From Caulobacterales bacterium (GTDB taxonomy: Bacteria > Pseudomonadota > Alphaproteobacteria > Caulobacterales > Caulobacteraceae), in assembly GCA_947474395.1 (NCBI GenBank), contig CANJID010000011.1, forward strand, positions 1-64,000: a stretch of 64,000 bases of DNA. The letters are read 5' to 3'. Made by a program: the position numbers and the translations under genes. Under the pieces are notes generated by a model. It had not been told where the DNA came from. It saw only the letters and a list, made by a program, of their open reading frames with translations, and did not search any database. Shown one piece after another: positions 31,168 to 58,833 of the stretch (positions within the stretch are counted from its first letter, which is position 1; every line of letters begins with the position of its first letter).

Positions 31168-32706
31168 ATGGCCGCGCAGATCGTCTCCTTGCTCCGCTTC
31201 ACCCAGCCGCTTCAGCGGGACTGGTCCCAGCAGGAGCTCGCCGAATTCTACCGTGTCGAGGGCGCCCTTCTGCGCGCCGGCATGCGAATCGAGACCGAGC
31301 GGGGCGTCACCGACGACGGCGACCCCTGGTTCGCCTTCTGCCGCGCCGAGGACGGCGAGGTCTTCATTCACTTCGCGCGCATCGACGGCGAATATCTGAT
31401 CGCCGGCCCCGGCTACGAGGGCATCGCCCGCGGCCGGGACTTCGCCTCGCTGGTCCGGGACCTGATCTCCCGCCATCCGCTGGTGCAGCCGGCGACCGGG
31501 CGCGGGCCGAGCGCCAACAACAACATCTTCCTGCACCCCGCCGCCTTGCTGATCGCCGTGGTGGCCACCGCCTTCTTCAAGACCAACGAGGCCAAGGCCG
31601 ACGACGGCGACCATCGCCATGACCGCCACGCGCGGTCGGGCCTGCAGGTCGCGGTCCGGTCGATGACCGGCGGCTCGGTGATCACCGTCGATGCGGACCA
31701 GACTCTGGCGGTTGTCGCCAGCGCCATGATCGCCCTGGACCGTGAAGGCTCGCTGCTCAACGCCGCCAGCGTCCGGGCCTTCGCCGACAACCACGCGCCG
31801 CGCGCCGATCTCTTCGCCGCCGGGGCGGCCGAAGTCGCCTCGCACCAGGCGCCCGCCCAGTCGCTGGTGGAAGCCCCATCCACCCATTCCGCCGCCGGCT
31901 CTCTCCTGTCGAACGTCGGCGCCTGGCTCGCCCTCACCGTGGTGCTGAAGGATCTGGCCGCCGGTCCGTCCCCCATCGCCGCGGCCGAAGGGGTAGGCCT
32001 GCCGGTCACGCTTGCACGGCAGGACGCCGCCGTCCTGGCCGACGGCGCCCCGACTCAGGCCCAGGCCGCTGAATCAGACATGATCGCCGCGCGATCGGCC
32101 GCGGGGCGTCTCTTCGCGGTCGAGCTTTCGCCGGGGCCCCTGCCCGACGTCGCGGCCATCCGGGTGCTGCACGAGAGCGGAGTGGATACCGGCACGGTCA
32201 TCCAGGTGGCCAAGCTGCCGACCATCCTGGCCGACTACATCGCCCGCGGCGAGCATCTGCTCGAAAGCCAGGTGCCGACCGGCCTTCCGGCCGTGGATCA
32301 TAACGCGACCCTTCCGGTCCCCGCCGATTCGGTGGGCGACGCCCTGCCCGGGCTGCACGCTTCCGCGGACGGCGACAGCGCCGCGAACGACGCCGCGCCC
32401 GCCCCCGCCGTCGAGGCGGCTCAGCCTCCGACGCCGGCGCCGGCGCCGATCGATTCCGCCGCGGCGGCGGCTACTGCGGCGCGGGTCCAGCACATCACCG
32501 ACGTGATCGCCTACTTCACCGACCACACGGCCAAGGTGAGCACCGTGGTCAACAACCACCAAGTGGTCCTGTACGACGATCGGGTCATGACCGACCTGAG
32601 CGTCCTGACCTACGCCGAGAGCGTCACCTTCACCTTCGACGACGGCAGCTCCATCAGCCTGATCGGCGCCGCTTCGGCGCTTCCCGATCTGCACGGTCTG
32701 CACTAA
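31168..32706 (+). CDS. Unknown 512-residue protein in the S-layer cluster
   Basis: I do not recognise a family. Residues 1-110 look globular (a DWSQQELAEFYRVEGALLRAG start and a segment EVFIHFARIDGEYLIAGPG). Then come a hydrophobic stretch (HPAALLIAVVATAFF, about 122-136), a His/Asp-rich patch (DDGDHRHDRHARSG), a long Ala/Pro-rich middle that is probably disordered, and a compact C-terminal part (VNNHQVVLYDDRVMTDLSVLTYAESVTFTFDDGSSISLIG). It follows the XRE gene closely on the same strand. A role in S-layer expression, export or the envelope is inference only. Confidence 0.65.
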   Translation: MAAQIVSLLRFTQPLQRDWSQQELAEFYRVEGALLRAGMRIETERGVTDDGDPWFAFCRAEDGEVFIHFARIDGEYLIAGPGYEGIARGRDFASLVRDLISRHPLVQPATGRGPSANNNIFLHPAALLIAVVATAFFKTNEAKADDGDHRHDRHARSGLQVAVRSMTGGSVITVDADQTLAVVASAMIALDREGSLLNAASVRAFADNHAPRADLFAAGAAEVASHQAPAQSLVEAPSTHSAAGSLLSNVGAWLALTVVLKDLAAGPSPIAAAEGVGLPVTLARQDAAVLADGAPTQAQAAESDMIAARSAAGRLFAVELSPGPLPDVAAIRVLHESGVDTGTVIQVAKLPTILADYIARGEHLLESQVPTGLPAVDHNATLPVPADSVGDALPGLHASADGDSAANDAAPAPAVEAAQPPTPAPAPIDSAAAAATAARVQHITDVIAYFTDHTAKVSTVVNNHQVVLYDDRVMTDLSVLTYAESVTFTFDDGSSISLIGAASALPDLHGLH

Positions 32707-42840: not shown

Positions 42841-43138
42841 TCAATAGGCCCTCCAAAGCTCCAACATCGTCTGGCCGGGCAAATGAACGAAGAAACTGGC
42901 TTAATAACTATCCGGCCGGCGAGGACAGTTGCTCTCCCGTCCGGCTTATTCAAGTTCTACATTGGCGTTTACTCCTGCTATTTCGGCGTATAGACTTCGA
43001 CACTGGGCGCATTTTTTCTGCGATTACACTACGCGGGCCTTGTGGAAGGGCCGCGAGTCAGCGATCTGTGGATTCGCGTCGCGGTGTTCGGGGCGCGAGG
43101 CCCTCCTGGGCCATCCCAATCAGCAATTGAGGTATCGG

Positions 43139-44509
43139 ATGACTGTCCGAGGACTGCCCGCGCCTGCGCGGGAGCGAGATCCTGCGCCCGCCTTGCAGCT
43201 GGAGATTGTCTACCGGCCGCTCGGCGGGCTCACGCTCTACAAGAACAATCCTCGCCAGCACTCCCGGCGCCAGATCGAGATGCTAGCGGGGAGCATGGGC
43301 GCCTATGGGTTCGTGGTACCCATCCTGATCGATGAGAACGGGGCGATCATCGCCGGCCATGCCCGCTACCTCGCCGCCAAGCTCAGGGGCATGGCGGAGG
43401 TCCCGACCATCACCCTCTCGCATTTAACCGAGCGGGCGAAGCGCAAGCTGCGGATCGCCGACAACAAGCACTCGGACAACGCGCGCTTCGATATGGCCAT
43501 GCTGAAGGCCGAGGTAGCCTCGATCCTCGAGGAGGAAGAGGGCCTCAAGATCGACTGGGAGGCCGAAGGCTATGAGATCGGTGAGCTAGACATCATCCTG
43601 GCCGAAGCGCCGCTCCTGGCCGAGGATGATGTGCCCGCCGCGCCCAAGGTCGCCAGGGCCGCGCGGGGCCAGATCATACGGCTTGGTCTGCACCGCGTGG
43701 GCTGCGGGGATGCTCGGGACGAGGCTTTCTTGCAACGGGTGATGGCCGGCGAGTTGGCCGACGTCGCCTTCCAGGACGTTCCATATAATCTAAGTATCCA
43801 AGGTCACGTGAGCCGCGCCGGCAAACACCGCGAGTTTGCAATGGCTTCCGGGGAGATGTCCGACCCCGAGTTCATCGCCTTCCTGGCAGAGAGCCTGGCG
43901 CTTGGCGCCCGCTACACCCGCGACGGCGGCGTCCACTTCATCTGCATCGATCACCATCACATCGACCAGCTGATGGCGGCGGCGGCGCCAATCTATAATG
44001 TCCGGCTGAACATCTGCGTGTGGAATAAGTCCAATGCCGGCATGGGCTCACTTTACCGGTCCAAGCACGAACTGATCGTCGTCTACCGCGTCGGCGCCGC
44101 CCAACATCTCAATAACATTCAGCTCGGCCGCTATGGCAGGTCGAGGTCGAATATCTGGGAATACCCCTCGGTCAACACCGTCGGCAGCGCCAGGGCCAAG
44201 GAGCTTGACTGGCATCCGACAACCAAGCCAGTAGCCATGGTGGCTGACGCCATCAAGGATGTGACCAAGCCCGGCGACATCGTCCTCGACACTTTCCTTG
44301 GCTCCGGCACCTCGCTGATCGCGGCCGAGCGGGTTGGTCGCCGGCTCTATGGGATCGAGCTTGATCCCCACTATGTCGACATCGCCGTCGAACGCTGGGT
44401 CAACATGACCGGCGGCACGCCTGTGATTGAAGAAGAAGCTCCGGCGCCAACGCCGGCGCCGGACGGCTGGGGCGCCGCCGCCAAGTTGTGGGGCGGGGCC
44501 CATGGCTAG
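43139..44509 (+). CDS. ParB-like nuclease/DNA methyltransferase fusion
   Basis: This 456-residue protein joins a ParB/Srx-like N-terminal domain (about 28-100; YKNNPRQHSRRQIEML, IIAGHARYLAAK) to an adenine/cytosine-N4 methyltransferase (about 175-440; catalytic region FQDVPYNLSIQGH, SAM motif FLGSGTSLIAAE). Such fusions are common on phages and mobile elements. The catalytic motif, usually DPPY, reads DVPY (D213-V214-P215-Y216), which may weaken or change activity. ATG 43139 with GAGG upstream is chosen; a much longer frame upstream does not look protein-like. It overlaps the DUF5681 gene. Confidence 0.88.
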   Translation: MTVRGLPAPARERDPAPALQLEIVYRPLGGLTLYKNNPRQHSRRQIEMLAGSMGAYGFVVPILIDENGAIIAGHARYLAAKLRGMAEVPTITLSHLTERAKRKLRIADNKHSDNARFDMAMLKAEVASILEEEEGLKIDWEAEGYEIGELDIILAEAPLLAEDDVPAAPKVARAARGQIIRLGLHRVGCGDARDEAFLQRVMAGELADVAFQDVPYNLSIQGHVSRAGKHREFAMASGEMSDPEFIAFLAESLALGARYTRDGGVHFICIDHHHIDQLMAAAAPIYNVRLNICVWNKSNAGMGSLYRSKHELIVVYRVGAAQHLNNIQLGRYGRSRSNIWEYPSVNTVGSARAKELDWHPTTKPVAMVADAIKDVTKPGDIVLDTFLGSGTSLIAAERVGRRLYGIELDPHYVDIAVERWVNMTGGTPVIEEEAPAPTPAPDGWGAAAKLWGGAHG

Positions 44510-45149
44510 GTCTGGCCGAGATGATAAGGGCCGGTTCCTGCCCGGCTGCACCGGCAATGCTGAGGGCCGGCGCAAGGTGAAGGGAGGGGCCAAGCCTGAC
44601 CGCTCCAATCTCATTCCGGTCAAGCGTGGGGGGCGAACCCGCTTGGTCGACCCAAAGCCGCTGGTCATGAACAAGCTGGTGAAGGCGGCGCTGCAGGAGG
44701 GCACCTTAGAGGGGGTCCGGCTCTATTTGCGGGAGATCCGGCTTCAGGACGCCCAGAAGTTCAAGCGCGACCTGGCCCTCCACGCTACCGCCAAGAGACC
44801 CCGCCCTGCCCTGCTCTATCACGAGGACATCCTAATCGCTCTGGGGGTCCTGAAGCACGGCGCCAACGGCCACATCCTCATCCCGGCGGGGGTTTTCGCG
44901 GACCTCAATCGTCGGTACCGGCCCAAGCCGTTAAGTGGTGCGCAGCTTCGGCGGCTCGAGCTCTGTCTAGACGACGCGACCGTTCTGCGGCGCCTCTATC
45001 CGAACTATCGGCTCAAATACAGGGACGCCGACGAGGCCGATCTTGCCCGTGAAAAGTCGATCGCCGCGGCCTTTGCCGACTACGACGCCATGATGGCCGA
45101 GGTCCAGGACTACGAGGCGTTCAAGCGGTGGCGCTCCAAACGCCGCTAG
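44502..45149 (+). CDS. DUF5681 protein
   Basis: This 215-residue protein starts GRDDKGRFLPGCTGNAEGRRKVKGG after MARS, the typical N-terminal signature of DUF5681, a small family with a GxFxxGxSGNPxGRP-like motif seen in phage and mobile-element neighbours. The rest is basic and helical with no catalytic motif I know. Its start overlaps the methylase stop by 8 bases, so they are translated together. A DNA-packaging or DNA-binding role is suggested by neighbours in other genomes but is unproven. Confidence 0.75.
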   Translation: MARSGRDDKGRFLPGCTGNAEGRRKVKGGAKPDRSNLIPVKRGGRTRLVDPKPLVMNKLVKAALQEGTLEGVRLYLREIRLQDAQKFKRDLALHATAKRPRPALLYHEDILIALGVLKHGANGHILIPAGVFADLNRRYRPKPLSGAQLRRLELCLDDATVLRRLYPNYRLKYRDADEADLAREKSIAAAFADYDAMMAEVQDYEAFKRWRSKRR

Positions 45150-45239
45150 GCGGTCCAGGCGCCCGCTGGCCGTTCACGTCGGCGGGCGCCAGCCCTACCT
45201 ATCCGGCGAAGACCATCTATGTCCGCGGCGCCGCCGACA

Positions 45240-46331
45240 TTACGTCGACGGCAGTTCGTCCGCGGCGGTTTCCGCCATCCCTTGGTCGAGCTCCTGGATC
45301 CGCGCTTCGATCAAGGCGCTATATTGATAGATGTCGGTAAGGTCAGCGAGGCGGTGACGAACTTCCGTTTTGCCCTGGAACGTCCCGAAATGCTTGGCCG
45401 TCAGACTGTTGAAGTGCAGGCGAGCAATGGTCTTGCGGTTATTGTCGTCGAGCAGGACCGCGCAGTAGGACTTGGCGTCGCGCATCACCACCCGCTTCGG
45501 CTTGACCAGGCGCGAGGCGATGGCCTGAACGATATGGAAGCCGGAAATTTCCTCTGCCGTGGTGACGACCTCCCCTTCGCCATCGGCGTCCGCTGAAGGC
45601 TCGGTTTCGGAGGGAGCGGCGGCGTTCAGGGCGCTGGATAGACGGTCGTTCACGAGATCCCGCACGTGGGCGGCGATGACGGCGCCGAGGAGCTTGGCGA
45701 AGTTGTCCTTCACCTGGGGCGTCAGGCGTCCCTCATAGACGCGCCCCGCCATCATCCGTACGAACTCCTCGGACGGCTCGGCTAGCTCCTTCTCCAGCTC
45801 CTTTCGGATCAAGGATTGGAGCTTCAGCGTCCCGGCCTCTTGGACGATCTTGTCGATGTCAAAGGTCGCCTTGGAAAATTTCTCGATCGTTTTGATGTCC
45901 TGGGGCTTCAGGACGTCCATGCTGAAGGTGAAGAAGGGCCGATCATCCATCTTATTCGGCGCTTCGACGTCCGAATAAAACTGGAAGATCACCCCGTTGG
46001 TCAGCACCGCAAGCCGGGCGTCGGTGACGCTGAAGTAGCGAAAAAGCTGGCCCGCGTGGTTTAAGCTCAGCGGCACACTGGCCGGCTTGCATTCGATCAG
46101 GATTTTGACCTTGCCGGCCTGGCAGATCGCGTAATCGACCTTCTCGCCCTTCTTGGTGCCGATGTCGGCTGTGTATTCGGGCACCACTTCCGATGGATCG
46201 AACACGTCGTAACCCAGCGCCTGAATGAACGGCATGACCAAGGCCGTCTTGGCCGCCTCCTCGGTCAGCAGCACTTCGCGGTGCTGCAGGGTCCGCTTCT
46301 GAAGCTCGGCCAGACGCGTCGCAAAATCCAT
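45240..46331 (-). CDS. Stand-alone restriction-endonuclease-like nuclease (HsdR N-terminal type)
   Basis: This 363-residue protein has a PD-(D/E)xK nuclease core near the N-terminus: KVDYAICQAGKVKILIECK places D66, E80 and K82 in the catalytic pattern, preceded by PEYTADIG. This N-terminal part resembles type I HsdR, but there is no helicase part. The C-terminal half (KRVVMRDAKSYCAVLLDDNNRKTIARLHFNS) looks like a separate beta-rich domain. It is convergent with DUF5681 and has no specificity or methylase partner on its strand. It may be a nuclease of a restriction or defence system. Confidence 0.75.
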   Translation of the reverse strand: MDFATRLAELQKRTLQHREVLLTEEAAKTALVMPFIQALGYDVFDPSEVVPEYTADIGTKKGEKVDYAICQAGKVKILIECKPASVPLSLNHAGQLFRYFSVTDARLAVLTNGVIFQFYSDVEAPNKMDDRPFFTFSMDVLKPQDIKTIEKFSKATFDIDKIVQEAGTLKLQSLIRKELEKELAEPSEEFVRMMAGRVYEGRLTPQVKDNFAKLLGAVIAAHVRDLVNDRLSSALNAAAPSETEPSADADGEGEVVTTAEEISGFHIVQAIASRLVKPKRVVMRDAKSYCAVLLDDNNRKTIARLHFNSLTAKHFGTFQGKTEVRHRLADLTDIYQYSALIEARIQELDQGMAETAADELPST

Positions 46332-49912: not shown

Positions 49913-50472
49913 AGGGGCGGTCCGTCTTCCAATCCTGAGCGATCGACCTTCTGGGAGAGGCTGCGCACGCCTTCGCCGGCGGCGATGCCGGCCGCCAGCC
50001 GATCGGTCCCGATGCTGGGGATCGCGCTGTGCAACTTCTGGCGCAGCCGACCGGCGTCGGCTGACCCTTCGGCGAGGTAGTGTTCTTCCATCTGCCGCGA
50101 CCGGTGCAGGGCGCGGTCATCGAGAGTCGCCTTGATGGCAGCCTCATAGGCGGACGGCCCGGTCTGGCCGTCGCGGGCCACATCGCATGCCTGGGCCGCC
50201 AGTAGCGCCTCGACCGGGTTTTCCGCCGAGGCCTGCAGCCGCCGGGTCTCGGACACGGCCACCTCGCCGAATAGATTGCCGCGCTCGTTGTCCCCGAGCG
50301 CGGCGCGGACTTCCTTTGCGAACGCGGGCCGCACCGCGCCCCAGTCGTTCAACAGCGCCGGCTGAAAGGCCTCGGCGGTTTCGGCGACCGAGTGGGCCGG
50401 GTTTGCCGCGATCTTAGCTAGCCCTTTCCAGGGCCGGCTCATCTTCATGCTCTTGTACGGACCATCGCTCAT
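49909..50472 (-). CDS. Unknown 187-residue protein, first gene of the QueC-like operon
   Basis: I do not recognise this protein. ATG 50472 follows GGAGG; it opens MSDGPYKSMKMSRPWKGLA and is otherwise helical and charged, with no Cys-rich, membrane or enzymatic motif (ASGTDRLAAG-like stretches and VRSLSQKVDRSG near the end). Its stop overlaps the QueC-like start, so the two are produced together, and by analogy with QatB or the Cap9 substrate it may be the protein the QueC-like enzyme acts on. It lacks the N-terminal Gly used in those systems, so the analogy is untested. Confidence 0.6.
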   Translation of the reverse strand: MSDGPYKSMKMSRPWKGLAKIAANPAHSVAETAEAFQPALLNDWGAVRPAFAKEVRAALGDNERGNLFGEVAVSETRRLQASAENPVEALLAAQACDVARDGQTGPSAYEAAIKATLDDRALHRSRQMEEHYLAEGSADAGRLRQKLHSAIPSIGTDRLAAGIAAGEGVRSLSQKVDRSGLEDGPPL

Positions 50473-50485
50473 GGGCCCCTCCAGT

Positions 50486-50560
50486 GTCAGCAAGCTGACT
50501 GAGTCCACCGGTAATGTCAATTATTCCTGGAATAAAGCCTGACAATGTCAGATTCCAGGA
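50486..50560 (-). promoter_or_regulatory. Three stacked palindromes upstream of the QueC-like operon
   Basis: GTCAGC-AA-GCTGAC (50486-50499), TTATTCC-T-GGAATAA (50521-50535) and CTGACA-A-TGTCAG (50539-50551) are perfect dyads. In addition, TCCTGGAAT (50525-50533) and ATTCCAGGA (50552-50560) form an outer inverted repeat around the third. TGTCAG half-sites recur in the first and third. This packed symmetry in a promoter region suggests cooperative operator sites, plausibly for the XRE-peptidase of the same operon. The rest of 50473-50779 shows no other gene. Confidence 0.7.
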
Positions 50561-50779
50561 TCCCAGGGCGTGTCGGCGACACCCCCCGGGCAAGCGGGCC
50601 GGTAAAGGCGCCAGGCTTCACGCGGACATTCCGAAGGTCTCAACGAGCCCAAGCGGACTCCGATGGCCGCACTACCCCGGTTTGCGAGCGCGCCTTAGGT
50701 CCCTTTTTTCGATCTCGAATTGCCACTTTCAGATAATTCCGCGCACAACACTTCGATCGAAGGCTCGCGAGGGGCTGAG

Positions 50780-53124: not shown

Positions 53125-56100
53125 TCAGGGCGTCTGCGGGTGCAGGCCTCCCGGGACTTCTTCCGCTCCGGACCGGCTGGGGACCAGTCGGAGAATGAGT
53201 TGCGAAATGGCCGGCAGGACGAAGAGCGTGACCGCGGTCGCCGTGATCAGTCCGCCGATGACCACCATCGCGAGAGGCTTTTGCACCTCCGCTCCGGTCC
53301 CATGGGCGATCGCCATGGGGATGAAGCCGATCGCCGGAACCAGGCCCGTCATCAGGACGGGACGAAACCGCTCCACGCACCCGGCATAGATCGCCTCGGC
53401 GACGGGCGCGCCCTCATCGATCCTCTGACCGATGTTGGTCATCACCACGAGCCCGTTCAGCACCGCCACGCCCGCCAGCACGATGAAGCCGACCGCAGCC
53501 GAGATGGAGAAGGTGATGCCCGTCAACGCCAGCGCGAAGACGCCGCCCGCAAGACCAAGGGGGATGGCGGCGAACACCGCGGCTGCGCGTGCGAAGCCGC
53601 CAAGCGCCAGGTAGAGGAGGAAGAAGATCATGACGAAACAGATCGGCACCACGAGGGCGAGCCGAGCCGTCGCCGCCTTCAGGTTCTCGTACTGACCTCC
53701 CCAGGTGAGCCAGGACCCCGTCGGCAAGGGAACGGCCCCGACCTTGGATCGCGCCTCGGCGACGAAAGAGCCGATATCGCGGTTGTGGACATTGGCCTGG
53801 ATCACGACCCGGCGTTTCCCGTCTTCCCGGCTGATCTGGTTAAGACCGTCGGCGAAGCGGAATTGCACGAGTTCGCGCAACGGTACGGAATGCTGAGGGC
53901 GTCCGTCGGCCGAAGGCAACATCACGGGCAAGGCGCCCATCGCGTCGAGATCGTCACGCTGGCCCATCGGAACCCGGACAATGATGTCGAAGCGCTTATC
54001 GCCTTCGAAGACGACGCCGGCTTCGCGCCCGCCGAGCGCGGCGGCCACCGTGTCGGCGACTTCCTCCACCCGCAGGCCGAAGCGTGCGATCGCGGCGCGA
54101 TCGAACCTCACGTCCAAGGTCGGGGCTCCAGTGGTCTGCTCCACGCGAACGCCCTCGGCTCCCGGAATTGATTCCAGCACCGCGCCGATCTTCGCCCCCG
54201 CCGCGCTCATCTTGTCGAGGTCGTCGCCGTAGAGCTTGATGGCGACATCGCCCCGGACGCCGGCGATCAGCTCATTGAACCGCATCTGGATCGGCTGGGT
54301 CACTTCGTAGCTGTTGCCGAGCAAGGGAGCGGACATGGCCTCGATCCGCGCGATGACCTTTTCCTTGCTGTCGACGCCCTTCGGCCAATCCTTCTCCGGC
54401 TTGAGGATGATGAACCCGTCGGACTGGTTCGGGGGCATGGGGTCGGTGGCGACCTCGGCTGTGCCGGTCTTGGAGAACATCATCGCCACCTCCGGCAACG
54501 AGCTGATGGCCTTCTCGACCTGCTGCTGCATGGCTCGCGACTGTTCGAGCGCCGTCGACGGGATTTTCAGCGCACCCATGGCGACGTTCTTCTCGTCGAG
54601 CTGGGGGATGAATTCCTGTCCCAGCGTCGTGTAGACGACCGCGGAGACCGCAAAGACCGCCAAGCCGCCCCCGATGAAGAGCCAGGGACGAGCTATGGCG
54701 CTGCGCAAAACCGGCGCGTAGCCCCGCTTCGAATACTCGATCGCCCGGACCTCTTTCTCGGCGACCTTCCCGCGAATGAGGATGGCGACCATGGCCGGCA
54801 CAAAGGTTAGCGAAAGGATGAAGGCCGCGCCCAGGGCGAGCATGATGGTGATCGCCATGGGGGAGAAGGTCTTGCCCTCGACGCCGGTGAAGGCGAGCAG
54901 GGGCGCGAAGACCAGGAAGATGATCGCCTGCCCGTACACGGTCGGACGGATCATCTCCTGGGATGCGTGCAGCACGGTCTCCAGGCGCTCTCGAAGCGCC
55001 AACAATCGGCCTTCGTGATGCTGACGCTCCGCAAGCCGTAGCAGACAGTTCTCGATGATGATCACCGCGCCGTCGACGATCAGTCCGAAGTCGAGGGCGC
55101 CAAGGCTCATCAGGTTCCCGGAGACCTTCAGCGAGTTCATGCCGATCGCCATCATCAGGAAGGAGAACGGGATCACGAGCACGGCGATCAGGGCGGCGCG
55201 CCAATTCCCGAGCAGGAAGAACAGGGTCGCCGCCACCAGGATGGCGCCTTCGGTGAGGTTGCGTTGCACGGTGCCGACGGTGGCGTTCACCAGAACTGAG
55301 CGGTCGAGCGTGGGCGTGGCGACCACTCCCGGCGGAAGCGACTTCCTCACCTCGGTGAGCTTCTCGCCCGCGGCCTTTGCGACCGTCCGGCTGTTCTCGC
55401 CGATGAGCATCAGCGCCGTTCCGATCACAACCTCGTCGCCGTTCTTGCTGGCGGCCCCGGTCCTCAGATCCCCTCCGACGCGGGTGACCGCCACGTCTTT
55501 CACGGCCACGGGAACGGTCTGGCGGGTGGCGATGACCGCGTTGGCTATCTCGTCCAGGGTGCGAACCCGGGCGTCGGCACGGACAAGGTAGGCCTCGCCG
55601 GCCCGCTGGACGAAGTTGGCGCCGACCGAAAGATTCGCCGCTTCGAGCGCCTTCGCCAGTTCGGAGTAGGAGATGCCGTAGGCCGCCAATTTCGACGGAT
55701 CAGGCTCAACGACATACTGCTTTTCATAGCCGCCGATTGAATCGATGCCGGCGACGCCCCTGACCGTGCGGAGTTGCGGCCTGATGATCCAGTCCTGGAC
55801 GGTGCGCAGGTACGCCGCCTGGGCGACCCTGTCGCTCAGTCGCTCCCCGTCTCCCGTCAAATAGGATCCGTCGCTCTGCCAGCCCGGGCTGCCGTCCTTC
55901 CTCGGGGCGCCTGCGCCGCCGGGGTTCGCGAACTCGACCGAGTACATATAGACCTCGCCCAGGCCGGTCGTGACCGGGCCGATCTGCGGCTGGACGTTCG
56001 ACGGCAAGGTGTCGCGGGCCTGCGTCAGGCGTTCGGCGACTTGCTGGCGCGCAAAATAGAGGCTCGTGCTGTCGGCGAAGATGGCCGTGACTTGTGAGAA

Positions 56101-56367
56101 GCCGTTGCGCGAAATCGAGCGCGTCGTCTCAAGGCCGGGGATTCCGGCAAGCGCCGTCTCGATTGGGAAGGTGACCCGCTTCTCGATCTCGACCGGCGAC
56201 AGTGCCGGCGCGATCGAATTGATCTGAACTTGATTGTTGGTGATGTCCGGCACGGCGTCGATGGGCAACTTGGTGAGTTGCCACGCCCCGAAGGCGGCGA
56301 CAAATAGGGTGAGGAGGAGGACATACCAACGCCCCTTCACCGCCATAGAGAGAATCCGACCGATCAT
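53125..56367 (-). CDS. czcA: CzcA-type heavy-metal RND efflux pump (first copy)
   Basis: This 1080-residue inner-membrane proton/metal antiporter has the RND layout: 12 membrane segments, two large periplasmic loops, and the TM4 motif DFGLIVDGAVIIIEN with its key acidic residues, which fits the CzcA/CnrA (Zn, Co, Cd, Ni) class and not the Cu/Ag class CusA. It forms a tripartite pump with the adaptor and TolC-type protein encoded upstream. It is 31 bases from the adaptor gene. Exact metal specificity cannot be read from sequence alone. Confidence 0.94.
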   Translation of the reverse strand: MIGRILSMAVKGRWYVLLLTLFVAAFGAWQLTKLPIDAVPDITNNQVQINSIAPALSPVEIEKRVTFPIETALAGIPGLETTRSISRNGFSQVTAIFADSTSLYFARQQVAERLTQARDTLPSNVQPQIGPVTTGLGEVYMYSVEFANPGGAGAPRKDGSPGWQSDGSYLTGDGERLSDRVAQAAYLRTVQDWIIRPQLRTVRGVAGIDSIGGYEKQYVVEPDPSKLAAYGISYSELAKALEAANLSVGANFVQRAGEAYLVRADARVRTLDEIANAVIATRQTVPVAVKDVAVTRVGGDLRTGAASKNGDEVVIGTALMLIGENSRTVAKAAGEKLTEVRKSLPPGVVATPTLDRSVLVNATVGTVQRNLTEGAILVAATLFFLLGNWRAALIAVLVIPFSFLMMAIGMNSLKVSGNLMSLGALDFGLIVDGAVIIIENCLLRLAERQHHEGRLLALRERLETVLHASQEMIRPTVYGQAIIFLVFAPLLAFTGVEGKTFSPMAITIMLALGAAFILSLTFVPAMVAILIRGKVAEKEVRAIEYSKRGYAPVLRSAIARPWLFIGGGLAVFAVSAVVYTTLGQEFIPQLDEKNVAMGALKIPSTALEQSRAMQQQVEKAISSLPEVAMMFSKTGTAEVATDPMPPNQSDGFIILKPEKDWPKGVDSKEKVIARIEAMSAPLLGNSYEVTQPIQMRFNELIAGVRGDVAIKLYGDDLDKMSAAGAKIGAVLESIPGAEGVRVEQTTGAPTLDVRFDRAAIARFGLRVEEVADTVAAALGGREAGVVFEGDKRFDIIVRVPMGQRDDLDAMGALPVMLPSADGRPQHSVPLRELVQFRFADGLNQISREDGKRRVVIQANVHNRDIGSFVAEARSKVGAVPLPTGSWLTWGGQYENLKAATARLALVVPICFVMIFFLLYLALGGFARAAAVFAAIPLGLAGGVFALALTGITFSISAAVGFIVLAGVAVLNGLVVMTNIGQRIDEGAPVAEAIYAGCVERFRPVLMTGLVPAIGFIPMAIAHGTGAEVQKPLAMVVIGGLITATAVTLFVLPAISQLILRLVPSRSGAEEVPGGLHPQTP

Positions 56368-56398
56368 TTCGGCATGTCTCCGAACCTGGGCAAACGGG

Positions 56399-57571
56399 TC
56401 ATTCTTCTTCGGCGCTCTTGCCGAGCTCCGCCTTCAGCAAGAAGGCGTTCTTCATCGCGACCATTTCGCCGCCCTTGAGGCCCTGCACGATCTCCGCGCG
56501 CCCACTGCTGCGTTGCCCGACGGTGACCGTCTGCACGCGGAATCCCTTGTCGGTCCGGACGAAGACCGCATCGCGACCCTCGACGGTTTGCACCGCCTCT
56601 TCAGGCACCACGATGCCCGTGGTGAGCGATTGCCGGGACGTGATCCTGGCCTTCACCAGCTGACCCGGCTGCAGACCGCTCGCCCCTCCGGTGAGCGACA
56701 GCACGACAGTCGCCGAACGAGTCTCCTCGCTCACCCCGGGGGTAACCGAGCGCACGACCGCTGTCCGGGGTTCGCCGTTAGCTTCCTCAACCACCGCCAG
56801 ATCGCCCGGACGGATGCGACGCGCGTCCGTCGCGGTTACCGCCGCCTCGATCTGGATCCGCGTCGGATCGGCAATGCGGAACAGTTCCGTTTCCGGTTGG
56901 ACGAACGCTCCAAGGTTGGCGGCCATGGCCGTGATGCGCCCGGTGATTGGACTGATCACCGCGACGTACCGGCCATCGCTTGAGACTGCCGCGGCGCTCG
57001 CCGCGCTCGACGCGCGTCGCGCTTCTGCTTCAGCCGCCGTGAGTGCTGCCTGCGCGGCCTCGTAATCTTGTCGGGGGGTGACCTTCTGCTCGTACAGCCG
57101 CTGCTCGCGGGCAAGCACCTTCCTGGCGAGGTCGGCTTTGGCCACGGCGACACTGCGGTCGGCCGAGATCTGCCCGGCTTCCCGGCTTTCGACGAGCGCG
57201 AGTGTTTCGCCGGCGCGAACCGGATCGCCGAGGCGCTTCGTGATGCGGGCCACAGAACCGGCGGCGCGCGCGGTCAGCACCGCCTGGCCGGTCGGTTCGG
57301 CCTCAACGGTCGCTTGGGCGGTGATCTCCGACGCCAATCCGCTAACCGCAACGGCCTGGACCTGAACGCCAGAGACGGTGAGGCGCTCAGGCCCCATGAC
57401 GAGGGCGTTAGCAGCGGGAGCGGCCGCCTCCTCCTTCGCTGCTTCGGCGGCCGGGGGAGCCTTACCGCTTGAGAACTTGGCCGCGGCGAAGCCGACGCCG
57501 AGGGCGACGACGACGGCGGCGCCCGAAAGGAGCCACTGCCGGTTGCTGCTTGAATAGGCTGTGCGAGGCAT
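56399..57571 (-). CDS. czcB: CzcB-type periplasmic adaptor
   Basis: This 390-residue membrane fusion protein has an N-terminal membrane anchor (WLLSGAAVVVALGVGFAAA), a lipoyl-type half (AAGSVARITKRLGDPVRAGETLALVES), a helical hairpin, the second half (ISPITGRITAMAANLGAFVQ) and a beta-barrel/membrane-proximal part. It connects the RND pump to the outer-membrane channel. No His-rich N-terminal metal-binding stretch is present. Its ATG overlaps the czcC stop by one base. Confidence 0.92.
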   Translation of the reverse strand: MPRTAYSSSNRQWLLSGAAVVVALGVGFAAAKFSSGKAPPAAEAAKEEAAAPAANALVMGPERLTVSGVQVQAVAVSGLASEITAQATVEAEPTGQAVLTARAAGSVARITKRLGDPVRAGETLALVESREAGQISADRSVAVAKADLARKVLAREQRLYEQKVTPRQDYEAAQAALTAAEAEARRASSAASAAAVSSDGRYVAVISPITGRITAMAANLGAFVQPETELFRIADPTRIQIEAAVTATDARRIRPGDLAVVEEANGEPRTAVVRSVTPGVSEETRSATVVLSLTGGASGLQPGQLVKARITSRQSLTTGIVVPEEAVQTVEGRDAVFVRTDKGFRVQTVTVGQRSSGRAEIVQGLKGGEMVAMKNAFLLKAELGKSAEEE

Positions 57572-58833
57572 CAGGAATCTCCCAGGGGGCGGCCTTGCAG
57601 CCGCGCTAGACCGGCTTCCGCGCGCAGGCGTGCGAGCTGAGCTTGAATGGTTTGTGACCGCGCGTCGGCCAGCGTCCGACGCGAGTTGATGAGTTCGACC
57701 AGGGAAGCCCTGCCGGCCTCGTAAGCTATGCGCGTTAGCCGGTAGGCTTCGTCGGCGGTGGCCTCGCCCTGCGTTGTCGCGACTACCCGCGACTGGGCTG
57801 CATCGACCTGGAAGAGCGCCGTGCGCAGTTCCGCTTCGGCGTCCAGACGCGCCGCGTTAAGCCGCGCTTCGGCTCCCTGCAGCTCCCCTTGCGCAGCGCT
57901 GATATTGCCGCGGTTCTGGTCGAACACGGGGATCGGAACCGAGACGCCCGCCACGAGGGCGACCGAATTGTCACCCGAGAATCGCCGCAGACCCGCCGAC
58001 ACCGTGACATCGGGAACCGCCCTGGTGCGTTCGACGCGCACTCTGCGAGCAGCGGCCTCCCGCTCCGCTTGAGCCGCGACCACTGCCGGGGTCCCCAACA
58101 CGTCGATCTCTCGCCGAGGAGCCGTCGGGCTGGCGATCGTCAGCAAGCTCTGGCTCAGGGAGGTCAAAGGCACGCTTGACCCGGCGAGCGCTGTCAGACG
58201 CGCGAAAGCCCCTACCCGCTCCGCCCTGGCCGCGTCGCCCGCCGCTTGGGCGCTCGTCACCGCCGCTTGCGCTTGCAGACTGCGCAACTCAGCTTCCTTG
58301 CCGGCCTCGACCAGGGCGCGAGCGACCCCCCGGTCGTCTTGGGCCAGGGTAAGTGTCTCTTCGGCGAGCATCACCTGCCGCTCGGCCGCCTCGGCAAGGG
58401 CATAGGCCTCGGCAAGGGCGAAGGCATAGTCCGCGCGGGACTGGGTCAACCGAGCGCGCGCCGCCTCGACGCCGGCCTGCCCGGCGGCCATCCGCGCCGA
58501 TCTCTTGCCGCCAAGCTCAAGCGCTTGGCCAACGGAGAAGGTCACCTGGGACTCGCGGAGCCCGCTGTAGGGACCGGAACCCGCGAAGTCCTCGAGCTCG
58601 ACCGACGCCGTCGGATTCGGGCGGGCCGCGGCCTGAAGCGACAGGCCTTCAGCCTGGCGAACCTGAGCCGCGGCTTCCGACAACCGGGGCGCTGCTGACT
58701 GCGCCTGGGCGAGCAGTTCCCGAAAGGGCGGAGCCGGCTCGGCCGCCGCGCCGCCGCACGACATAAGCGCGGCGAGGATCGCGGCCGCGCTCGCAGCCGC
58801 ATACCGCGACCGCGTACGAATGTTGAGTGCCAT
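57571..58833 (-). CDS. czcC: CzcC-type outer membrane channel (TolC family)
   Basis: This 420-residue protein has a signal peptide (ending SCGGAAAEP, with a possible lipid-Cys near residue 26) and two repeated helical halves of the TolC fold (ELLAQAQSAAPRLSEAAAQVRQAEG; SQSLLTIASPTAPRREIDVLG and VPIPVFDQNRGNISAAQGEL). It is the outer-membrane part of the tripartite metal pump. It is the second gene of the leftward operon, after the small Cys/His-rich protein. Confidence 0.92.
   Translation of the reverse strand: MALNIRTRSRYAAASAAAILAALMSCGGAAAEPAPPFRELLAQAQSAAPRLSEAAAQVRQAEGLSLQAAARPNPTASVELEDFAGSGPYSGLRESQVTFSVGQALELGGKRSARMAAGQAGVEAARARLTQSRADYAFALAEAYALAEAAERQVMLAEETLTLAQDDRGVARALVEAGKEAELRSLQAQAAVTSAQAAGDAARAERVGAFARLTALAGSSVPLTSLSQSLLTIASPTAPRREIDVLGTPAVVAAQAEREAAARRVRVERTRAVPDVTVSAGLRRFSGDNSVALVAGVSVPIPVFDQNRGNISAAQGELQGAEARLNAARLDAEAELRTALFQVDAAQSRVVATTQGEATADEAYRLTRIAYEAGRASLVELINSRRTLADARSQTIQAQLARLRAEAGLARLQGRPLGDS

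Follow-up and report, generated by a model that had tools for sequence, protein, structure and literature searches.

Genes at the locus

The window (the whole 64-kb stretch of DNA that was analyzed) carries on its minus strand an operon of four genes, encoding in order a small protein that we call gene A, a QatC/QueC-like enzyme, a fusion of an XRE helix-turn-helix domain to an M78 peptidase domain (XRE-M78), and a PIN-like protein (Table 1). Gene A and the QueC-like gene overlap by 4 bp, as do the QueC-like and XRE-M78 genes, and a 10-bp gap separates XRE-M78 from the PIN gene. The QueC-like enzyme is clearly homologous to QatC, with solved QatC structures in the PDB matched by profile at an E value of 3e-26, but it scored 99.5 bits with the NCBIfam QatC model, for which the cut-off is 280. 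The best PADLOC model for XRE-M78 was RmrA (2.1e-24). The PIN-like protein matched PADLOC PDC-S70 (1.4e-08) and has invariant acidic residues; at an E value of 0.01, the PIN model matched 3/22 members of its family.

Table 1. Genes of the operon and sequence features of its promoter region, in window coordinates
Feature	Position	Strand	Remark
PIN-like protein, 194 aa	46775-47359	-	proposed toxin/effector; PF01850 E 0.0014, under its cut-off
XRE helix-turn-helix + Peptidase_M78 (ImmA/IrrE) fusion, 390 aa	47370-48542	-	PF06114 5.5e-15; PF01381 1e-11
QatC/QueC-like enzyme, 457 aa	48539-49912	-	PF06508 E 8.6e-08; PADLOC QatC 4.6e-26
Gene A, 187 aa	49909-50472	-	N-terminus MSDGPYKSM; no known family; first ATG of the operon at 50472
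Shine-Dalgarno sequence of gene A, GGAGGGG	50476-50482	-	judged by eye
O3, downstream half-site CTGACA	50485-50490	-	intact; directly before the Shine-Dalgarno sequence; overlaps half of the first dyad
First dyad, GTCAGC-AA-GCTGAC	50486-50499		perfect; not kept as a dyad in relatives
O2, middle site TTGACA-T-TACCG(G), TTGACATTACCGG	50508-50520	-	left half intact, equal to the -35-like hexamer
Second (ATTCC) dyad, TTATTCC-T-GGAATAA	50521-50535		perfect; between O1 and O2; peculiar to the window's genome
Outer 9-bp inverted repeat	50525-50560		arms 50525-50533 and 50552-50560; not conserved
O1, upstream operator CTGACA-T-TGTCAG (third dyad; CTGACA-A-TGTCAG on the plus strand)	50539-50551	-	perfect

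The stretch beside the operon (42929-46331) encodes an N6/N4 DNA methylase whose N-terminus weakly resembles ParB, along with one protein that weakly matches DUF5681 and another that carries the N-terminal domain of a type I restriction R subunit; it is possibly a defense or phage-derived island. Translations read by eye from 53125-58833 resemble a heavy-metal efflux RND system (CzcA-, CzcB-, and CzcC-like).

Related operons and their hosts

We collected relatives in a species scan (one genome per species) using an alignment of nine QueC-like proteins and kept the best 80 of 208; eight plasmid loci, one locus from the window's own family (L098), and the window itself completed a set of 90 scored loci. 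The loci are not independent. They were selected for resemblance to the QueC-like protein, so the counts below describe that family rather than XRE-M78 proteins at large. Gene A and the QueC-like gene were present in all 90, XRE-M78 in 89, and the PIN gene in 88; the locus lacking XRE-M78 (L042) and the two lacking the PIN gene (L042 and L082) lie on short contigs that run out close to that position. Hosts include Alpha- and Betaproteobacteria, Acidobacteriota, and one “Candidatus Entotheonella” record, and several to many of the records are metagenome bins. Upstream regions were counted in 89 loci, leaving out a Mesorhizobium locus (L070) in which the motif is absent from the scored piece and gene A is broken into two reading frames; the other three genes there are long open frames. 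Removal of 7 near-identical upstream regions left 82 nonredundant loci, 81 of which entered the XRE-M78 tree (L042 ends before that gene).

Among plasmid records, searches with XRE-M78 (E, 1e-15) and with the QueC-like protein (coverage of 80% or more) picked the identical 25, and no XRE-M78 copy without QueC was found there. XRE-M78 matches occurred in 5 of 385 genomes of the class, the window's own included: two carried full operons, one of them probably the record of L047, and two, too few to count, held a distant or partial XRE-M78 (33% and 43%) with neither the other genes nor a TGACA dyad. One of these two, the distant XRE-M78 at L106 (4300-4600), has a different recognition helix and the upstream palindrome AACAT-TAT-ATGTT. 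Among viral contigs, 36 pattern matches included no relative, and phage records gave no match.

Gene A had no match in Pfam, NCBIfam, or PADLOC at an E value of 0.05. A structure model predicted an all-helical protein (mean pLDDT, 91), with which one fold search found nothing at an E value of 0.001 or better and a second gave as its best match a designed repeat protein (Z score of 5.7 over 77 residues), which was unconvincing. No QatB chain appeared among the fold matches listed, a result that says nothing on kinship either way. Across the family, gene A combines a near-invariant [M/V][ST]DGP[HYF][KR] start with a central EEH motif and lies 5' of the QatC-like gene in 90/90 loci. The N-terminus reads [M/V][ST]DGP in 89/90 loci, although the DGP motif served to place the starts and the count is therefore of loci holding the motif and silent on operons without it. 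The mean majority was 0.87 over the first nine residues and 0.45 over the rest (37 rows). Based on this pattern, we regard the N-terminus of gene A as a candidate site of N-terminal protein modification.

A palindrome cluster in the promoter region

An earlier note on this DNA had drawn attention to stacked palindromes in the promoter region of the operon, and we confirmed the observation. Three perfect dyads lie inside 66 bp (50486-50551), exactly where they had been placed and directly 5' of the first ATG; the first and third have TGTCAG in common, and a 9-bp outer inverted repeat encloses the third. The claim that such a density exceeds chance also held. The 64-kb window contains 120 perfect palindromes with arms of at least 6 bp and spacers of at most 2 bp, and in two places three or more of them fall within 66 bp, one being the promoter cluster and the other a GC-rich stretch at 32432-32500. 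First-order Markov simulations of the 75-bp region itself reached three palindromes in 0/5000 runs. A fourth palindrome beside the cluster (50570-50582) had no counterpart within 2 mismatches upstream of the operon in the other 88 loci. The outer repeat is ordinary taken alone: perfect 9-bp inverted repeats with 3- to 30-nucleotide loops number 35 in the window.

A phased array of sites conserved with the operon

A TGACA-n-TGTCA dyad (spacer of 0 to 2, at most one mismatch) was found in the 160 bp upstream of the operon in 88/89 loci, window included. When these upstreams were shuffled (first order, 20 rounds), the dyad turned up in 1.6 of 89 on average and in 4 at most, and the remainder of the same loci yielded 37 dyad matches in 926,498 bases. 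One locus, L010, has no dyad within one mismatch and carries a degenerate site, and at L078 the distance from the dyad to the assigned gene A start is unusual.

The position most conserved in relatives is O2 (TTGACATTACCGG in the window), which the earlier note had missed; it was present with at most one mismatch in 76/82 nonredundant loci and perfect in 62/82. TTGACA is the usual left half, and a TATAAT-like hexamer (at least four matches) follows in 45/82 loci, a count that takes the best of spacings 15 to 19 under an earlier anchoring and carries no chance control. Because of these two features, O2 probably overlaps the -35 box in most of the family. Downstream, O3 was seen as a perfect TGACA at +30/+31 from O2 in 61/82 loci and was missing in 21/82; at six other offsets, the same word occurred in 0 or 1 of 82. 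This half-site adjoins the Shine-Dalgarno sequence, and its conservation may be partly translational. Upstream, O1 was present as a dyad with at most one mismatch at -30/-31 from O2 in 12/82 loci, window included, and in 0/82 at each of eight other offsets. The 31-bp step corresponds to about three helical turns, and its recurrence between sites suggests that neighboring sites could be in protein-protein contact. We consider it well supported by these comparisons that the operator common to the family consists of TGACA-n-TGTCA sites arrayed at 30- to 31-bp phasing and occurs in several phyla.

The proposal of a composite operator thus survives as an array but not in the composition first given to it, since only the third dyad (O1) and half of the first (overlapped by O3) belong. 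These are also the parts that recur upstream of related operons. As a dyad, the first was found within 2 mismatches in 5/89 upstreams, window included. The ATTCC dyad, which falls in the spacer between O1 and O2, was found within 3 mismatches in 2/89, again counting the window, and was not seen in the promoters of the 8 nearest relatives. At a tolerance of one mismatch, the window was the only one of the 89 loci with both arms of the outer repeat, and 6 others had a single arm, which in five cases lay near the start codon. We rejected the ATTCC dyad and the outer repeat as parts of the family operator on the grounds that they are not kept across the 89 loci. One dyad and half of another thus appear to make up a switch common to related four-gene, defense-like operons in many bacteria, and the rest of the cluster, peculiar to the window's genome, may be chance.

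The window's own version of the array is lopsided. The right half of O2 is eroded, with 3 mismatches, the worst of the 82 nonredundant loci, so that the weight of the operator has moved to the perfect O1. In the nearest relative (L018), O1 is likewise perfect and O2 damaged, and O3 is absent; of the sister pair, one member (L019) has both O1 and O2 perfect and the other (L038) a perfect O2 with a reduced O1. We found no sigma-70-like hexamer pair in the window's own promoter stretch, and the -10 element and start site are consequently uncertain there.

A predicted autoregulatory switch

We think it probable that the array is a phased autoregulatory switch, putatively bound by the XRE-M78 fusion encoded in the same operon. 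The XRE domain would bind the sites as a dimer, and occupancy would repress the operon. O1 would lie upstream, O2 over the -35-like TTGACA, and O3 before the Shine-Dalgarno sequence, near the inferred transcription start, and the 30- to 31-bp repeat would place all of them on one face of the DNA. The ImmA/IrrE-type peptidase domain would then help to relieve repression once the system is triggered. The helix-turn-helix region of XRE-M78, including the recognition helix, is near-invariant in the family, and HExxH is present in the M78 domain of 89/89 homologues, window included. Given this motif and the precedents of peptidase-dependent derepression described for ImmA/ImmR (PMC2701414) and IrrE/DdrO (PMC5552922), release of repression by the M78 domain is a reasonable inference, and no more. 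The earlier note had named the operon's XRE protein as the natural binder, and the comparison favors that choice through the motif, its place, and the 30- to 31-bp phasing across phyla.

The spacing within O2 offers a further view of the pairing between site and protein. An O2 without its central base (spacer 0) occurred in 7/75 loci in which O2 was good enough to be scored. These map as one change on the XRE-M78 tree, inside a single clade of eight (SH-aLRT of 100 in a quick tree) whose eighth member is L010. Rhizobium sp. RU36D (L083) has an XRE-M78 from another clade and the usual O2 spacer of 1, and on these grounds the form of the operator tracks the XRE clade, not the host genus. As a single event, the spacer-0 form fits co-adaptation or plain joint inheritance of operator and operon alike.

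Autoregulation by XRE proteins is an ordinary arrangement, and the locus shows two of its hallmarks: a palindrome in the promoter region of the regulator's own operon and conservation of that palindrome across copies of the operon. The form of this operator is unusually regular. A survey of XRE-regulator palindromes reports that they are often autoregulatory and sorts them into 223 motif clusters (PMC12565409); TGACA and TGTCA do not occur as words in its main text.

Other explanations for the palindromes

If a regulator of the host bound these sites instead, the operon would be one member of a wider regulon. DNA palindromes of this kind are common to many regulators, the operon is found on chromosomes and plasmids alike, and the window's genome has four other places matching CTGACANTGTCAG with one mismatch. 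The exact dyad CTGACANTGTCAG, however, occurs in that genome once, at the operon, which favors local control, and the same site accompanies the operon through Alpha- and Betaproteobacteria, Acidobacteriota, and Entotheonella, making an operon-borne binder likelier than a host factor. We judge control by a host regulator to be quite unlikely, and a genome-wide regulon is not supported. TTGACAWTGTC has an exact match at one other place in the genome, and the sole exact TTGACATTGTC outside the operon is at G000:C25:15032-15042. A division of labor, with XRE-M78 on O1 to O3 and a genome-specific factor on the ATTCC/GGAAT dyad and the flanking repeat, would account for a perfect 7-1-7 dyad whose half-unit recurs in the outer repeat. 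The absence of the ATTCC dyad from the 8 nearest relatives counts against a second factor, as does the finding that TATTCCNGGAATA has no other copy in the genome within one mismatch, and hence no regulon; palindromes with arms of at least 7 bp also number 31 in the window. Two regulators are unlikely.

The earlier note had also considered the outer repeat a possible trace of a mobile element, and its two 9-bp arms do flank O1. O1 keeps the same offset in relatives that have no arms, which argues that nothing was inserted around it, and, as described above, the window abounds in perfect short-loop inverted repeats of that length; we regard a mobile-element scar as extremely improbable. A role for the dyads in RNA, as a leader hairpin or attenuator, draws on one terminator-like match on O1 on the minus strand, where shuffling gave an expectation of 0.4. 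O1 and O2 lie at or 5' of the -35-like hexamer, however, and would be mostly untranscribed from the inferred start, and their spacers of 0 to 1 nucleotides leave no RNA loop unless inner pairs are lost. A search with Rfam at gathering scores found nothing at the promoter and two tRNAs only in the window. This role is very improbable.

Relationship to known systems

The operon resembles qatABCD in that its QatC-like gene follows one for a small helical protein whose N-terminus is strongly conserved, and we likened gene A to QatB in position and in N-terminal conservation. By eye, most of the motifs that PMC13329287 gives for QatC recur in the operon's QueC-like family, which differs from QatC in having S[DE]G[LM]DS instead of SGGxDS and four zinc-region cysteines instead of three. 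The N-termini set the two apart. QatB has an essential MGTS N-terminus (PMC13279940), which opens all six QatB-position proteins that we aligned, whereas gene A starts with MSDGP. Gene A showed no detectable homology to these six proteins (hhalign probability, 0.5%), and the PADLOC QatB model gave a weak match in 1/32 gene A members (E, 0.013). Neither the QatA NTPase nor the QatD nuclease domain was found in the window's four proteins. In the seven annotated plasmid loci (L011 to L017), no gene is labeled as qatA or qatD; L011, L015, and L017 do have other ATPase genes close to the operon. Unlike in qatABCD, XRE-M78 and PIN genes follow the QatC-like gene. On sequence grounds, then, the operon does not appear to be a member of qatABCD. 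Two loci from the window's family (L007 and L008, in G029 and G016) carry a canonical-looking qatBCD with a QatB starting with MGTS, indicating that both kinds of QatC-like operon circulate in that family.

Type IV CBASS offers a second point of comparison. In its Cap9-CdnD pair, a QueC-family protein modifies the N-terminus of its partner by deazaguanylation (PMC13279940), and the operon likewise joins a QueC-family enzyme to a partner protein whose N-terminus is a candidate target. The enzyme is, however, QatC-like rather than Cap9-like in length and sequence, and no CD-NTase Pfam domain was found in the operon's four proteins.

The downstream half of the operon is like RosmerTA (RmrA-RmrT), a phage defense system (PMC10440598), with an XRE and ImmA/IrrE-type fusion beside a PIN-like protein and RmrA as the best PADLOC model. 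COG2856-Xre fusions have been described in operons that also encode PIN or RelE toxins (Makarova 2009; PMC2701414), and here too the fusion protein is adjacent to a candidate toxin gene. The difference from RosmerTA is that the XRE-M78/PIN pair is joined by gene A and the QueC-like enzyme behind one promoter region and operator. DdrO/IrrE, in which DdrO is treated as a member of the XRE family (PMC12565409), also pairs a repressor with a COG2856 peptidase and has a palindromic operator at its promoters. In that system, the repressor and peptidase are separate and the RDRM motif is found at about 20 genes (PMC5552922), whereas XRE-M78 unites both domains in a single polypeptide and its predicted control extends, so far as observed, to one operon. 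The operon therefore looks like a Qat-like/RosmerTA-like hybrid.

Significance

The operon is more novel than its operator, with both its chemistry and its defense role putative. A search at the level of titles and abstract openings, beyond the reach of which lay most subscription papers and bioRxiv preprints, found no description of the gene set A-QueC-XRE/M78-PIN. We tentatively raise the possibility, which we hold to be rather less than even, that the operon is an undescribed defense system in which the QatC-like enzyme puts a deazaguanine-type group on gene A, with XRE-M78 as repressor and as antitoxin to the PIN protein. The target would be the N-terminal Ser/Thr of [M/V][ST]DGP, exposed by removal of the first residue.

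From a palindrome cluster noticed by eye, the analysis derives a defined operator and predicts its binder. It also brings to light a widespread four-gene operon in which a QatC-like enzyme is combined with an antitoxin/effector pair resembling RosmerTA. The role of QatC-type enzymes is a question left open by PMC13279940, and the N-terminus of gene A provides a second, non-QatB candidate substrate with which to ask what they do. If the defense reading is true, a single sensor, acting through the phased switch of three sites, would govern both the modification of a protein and the release of a toxin.
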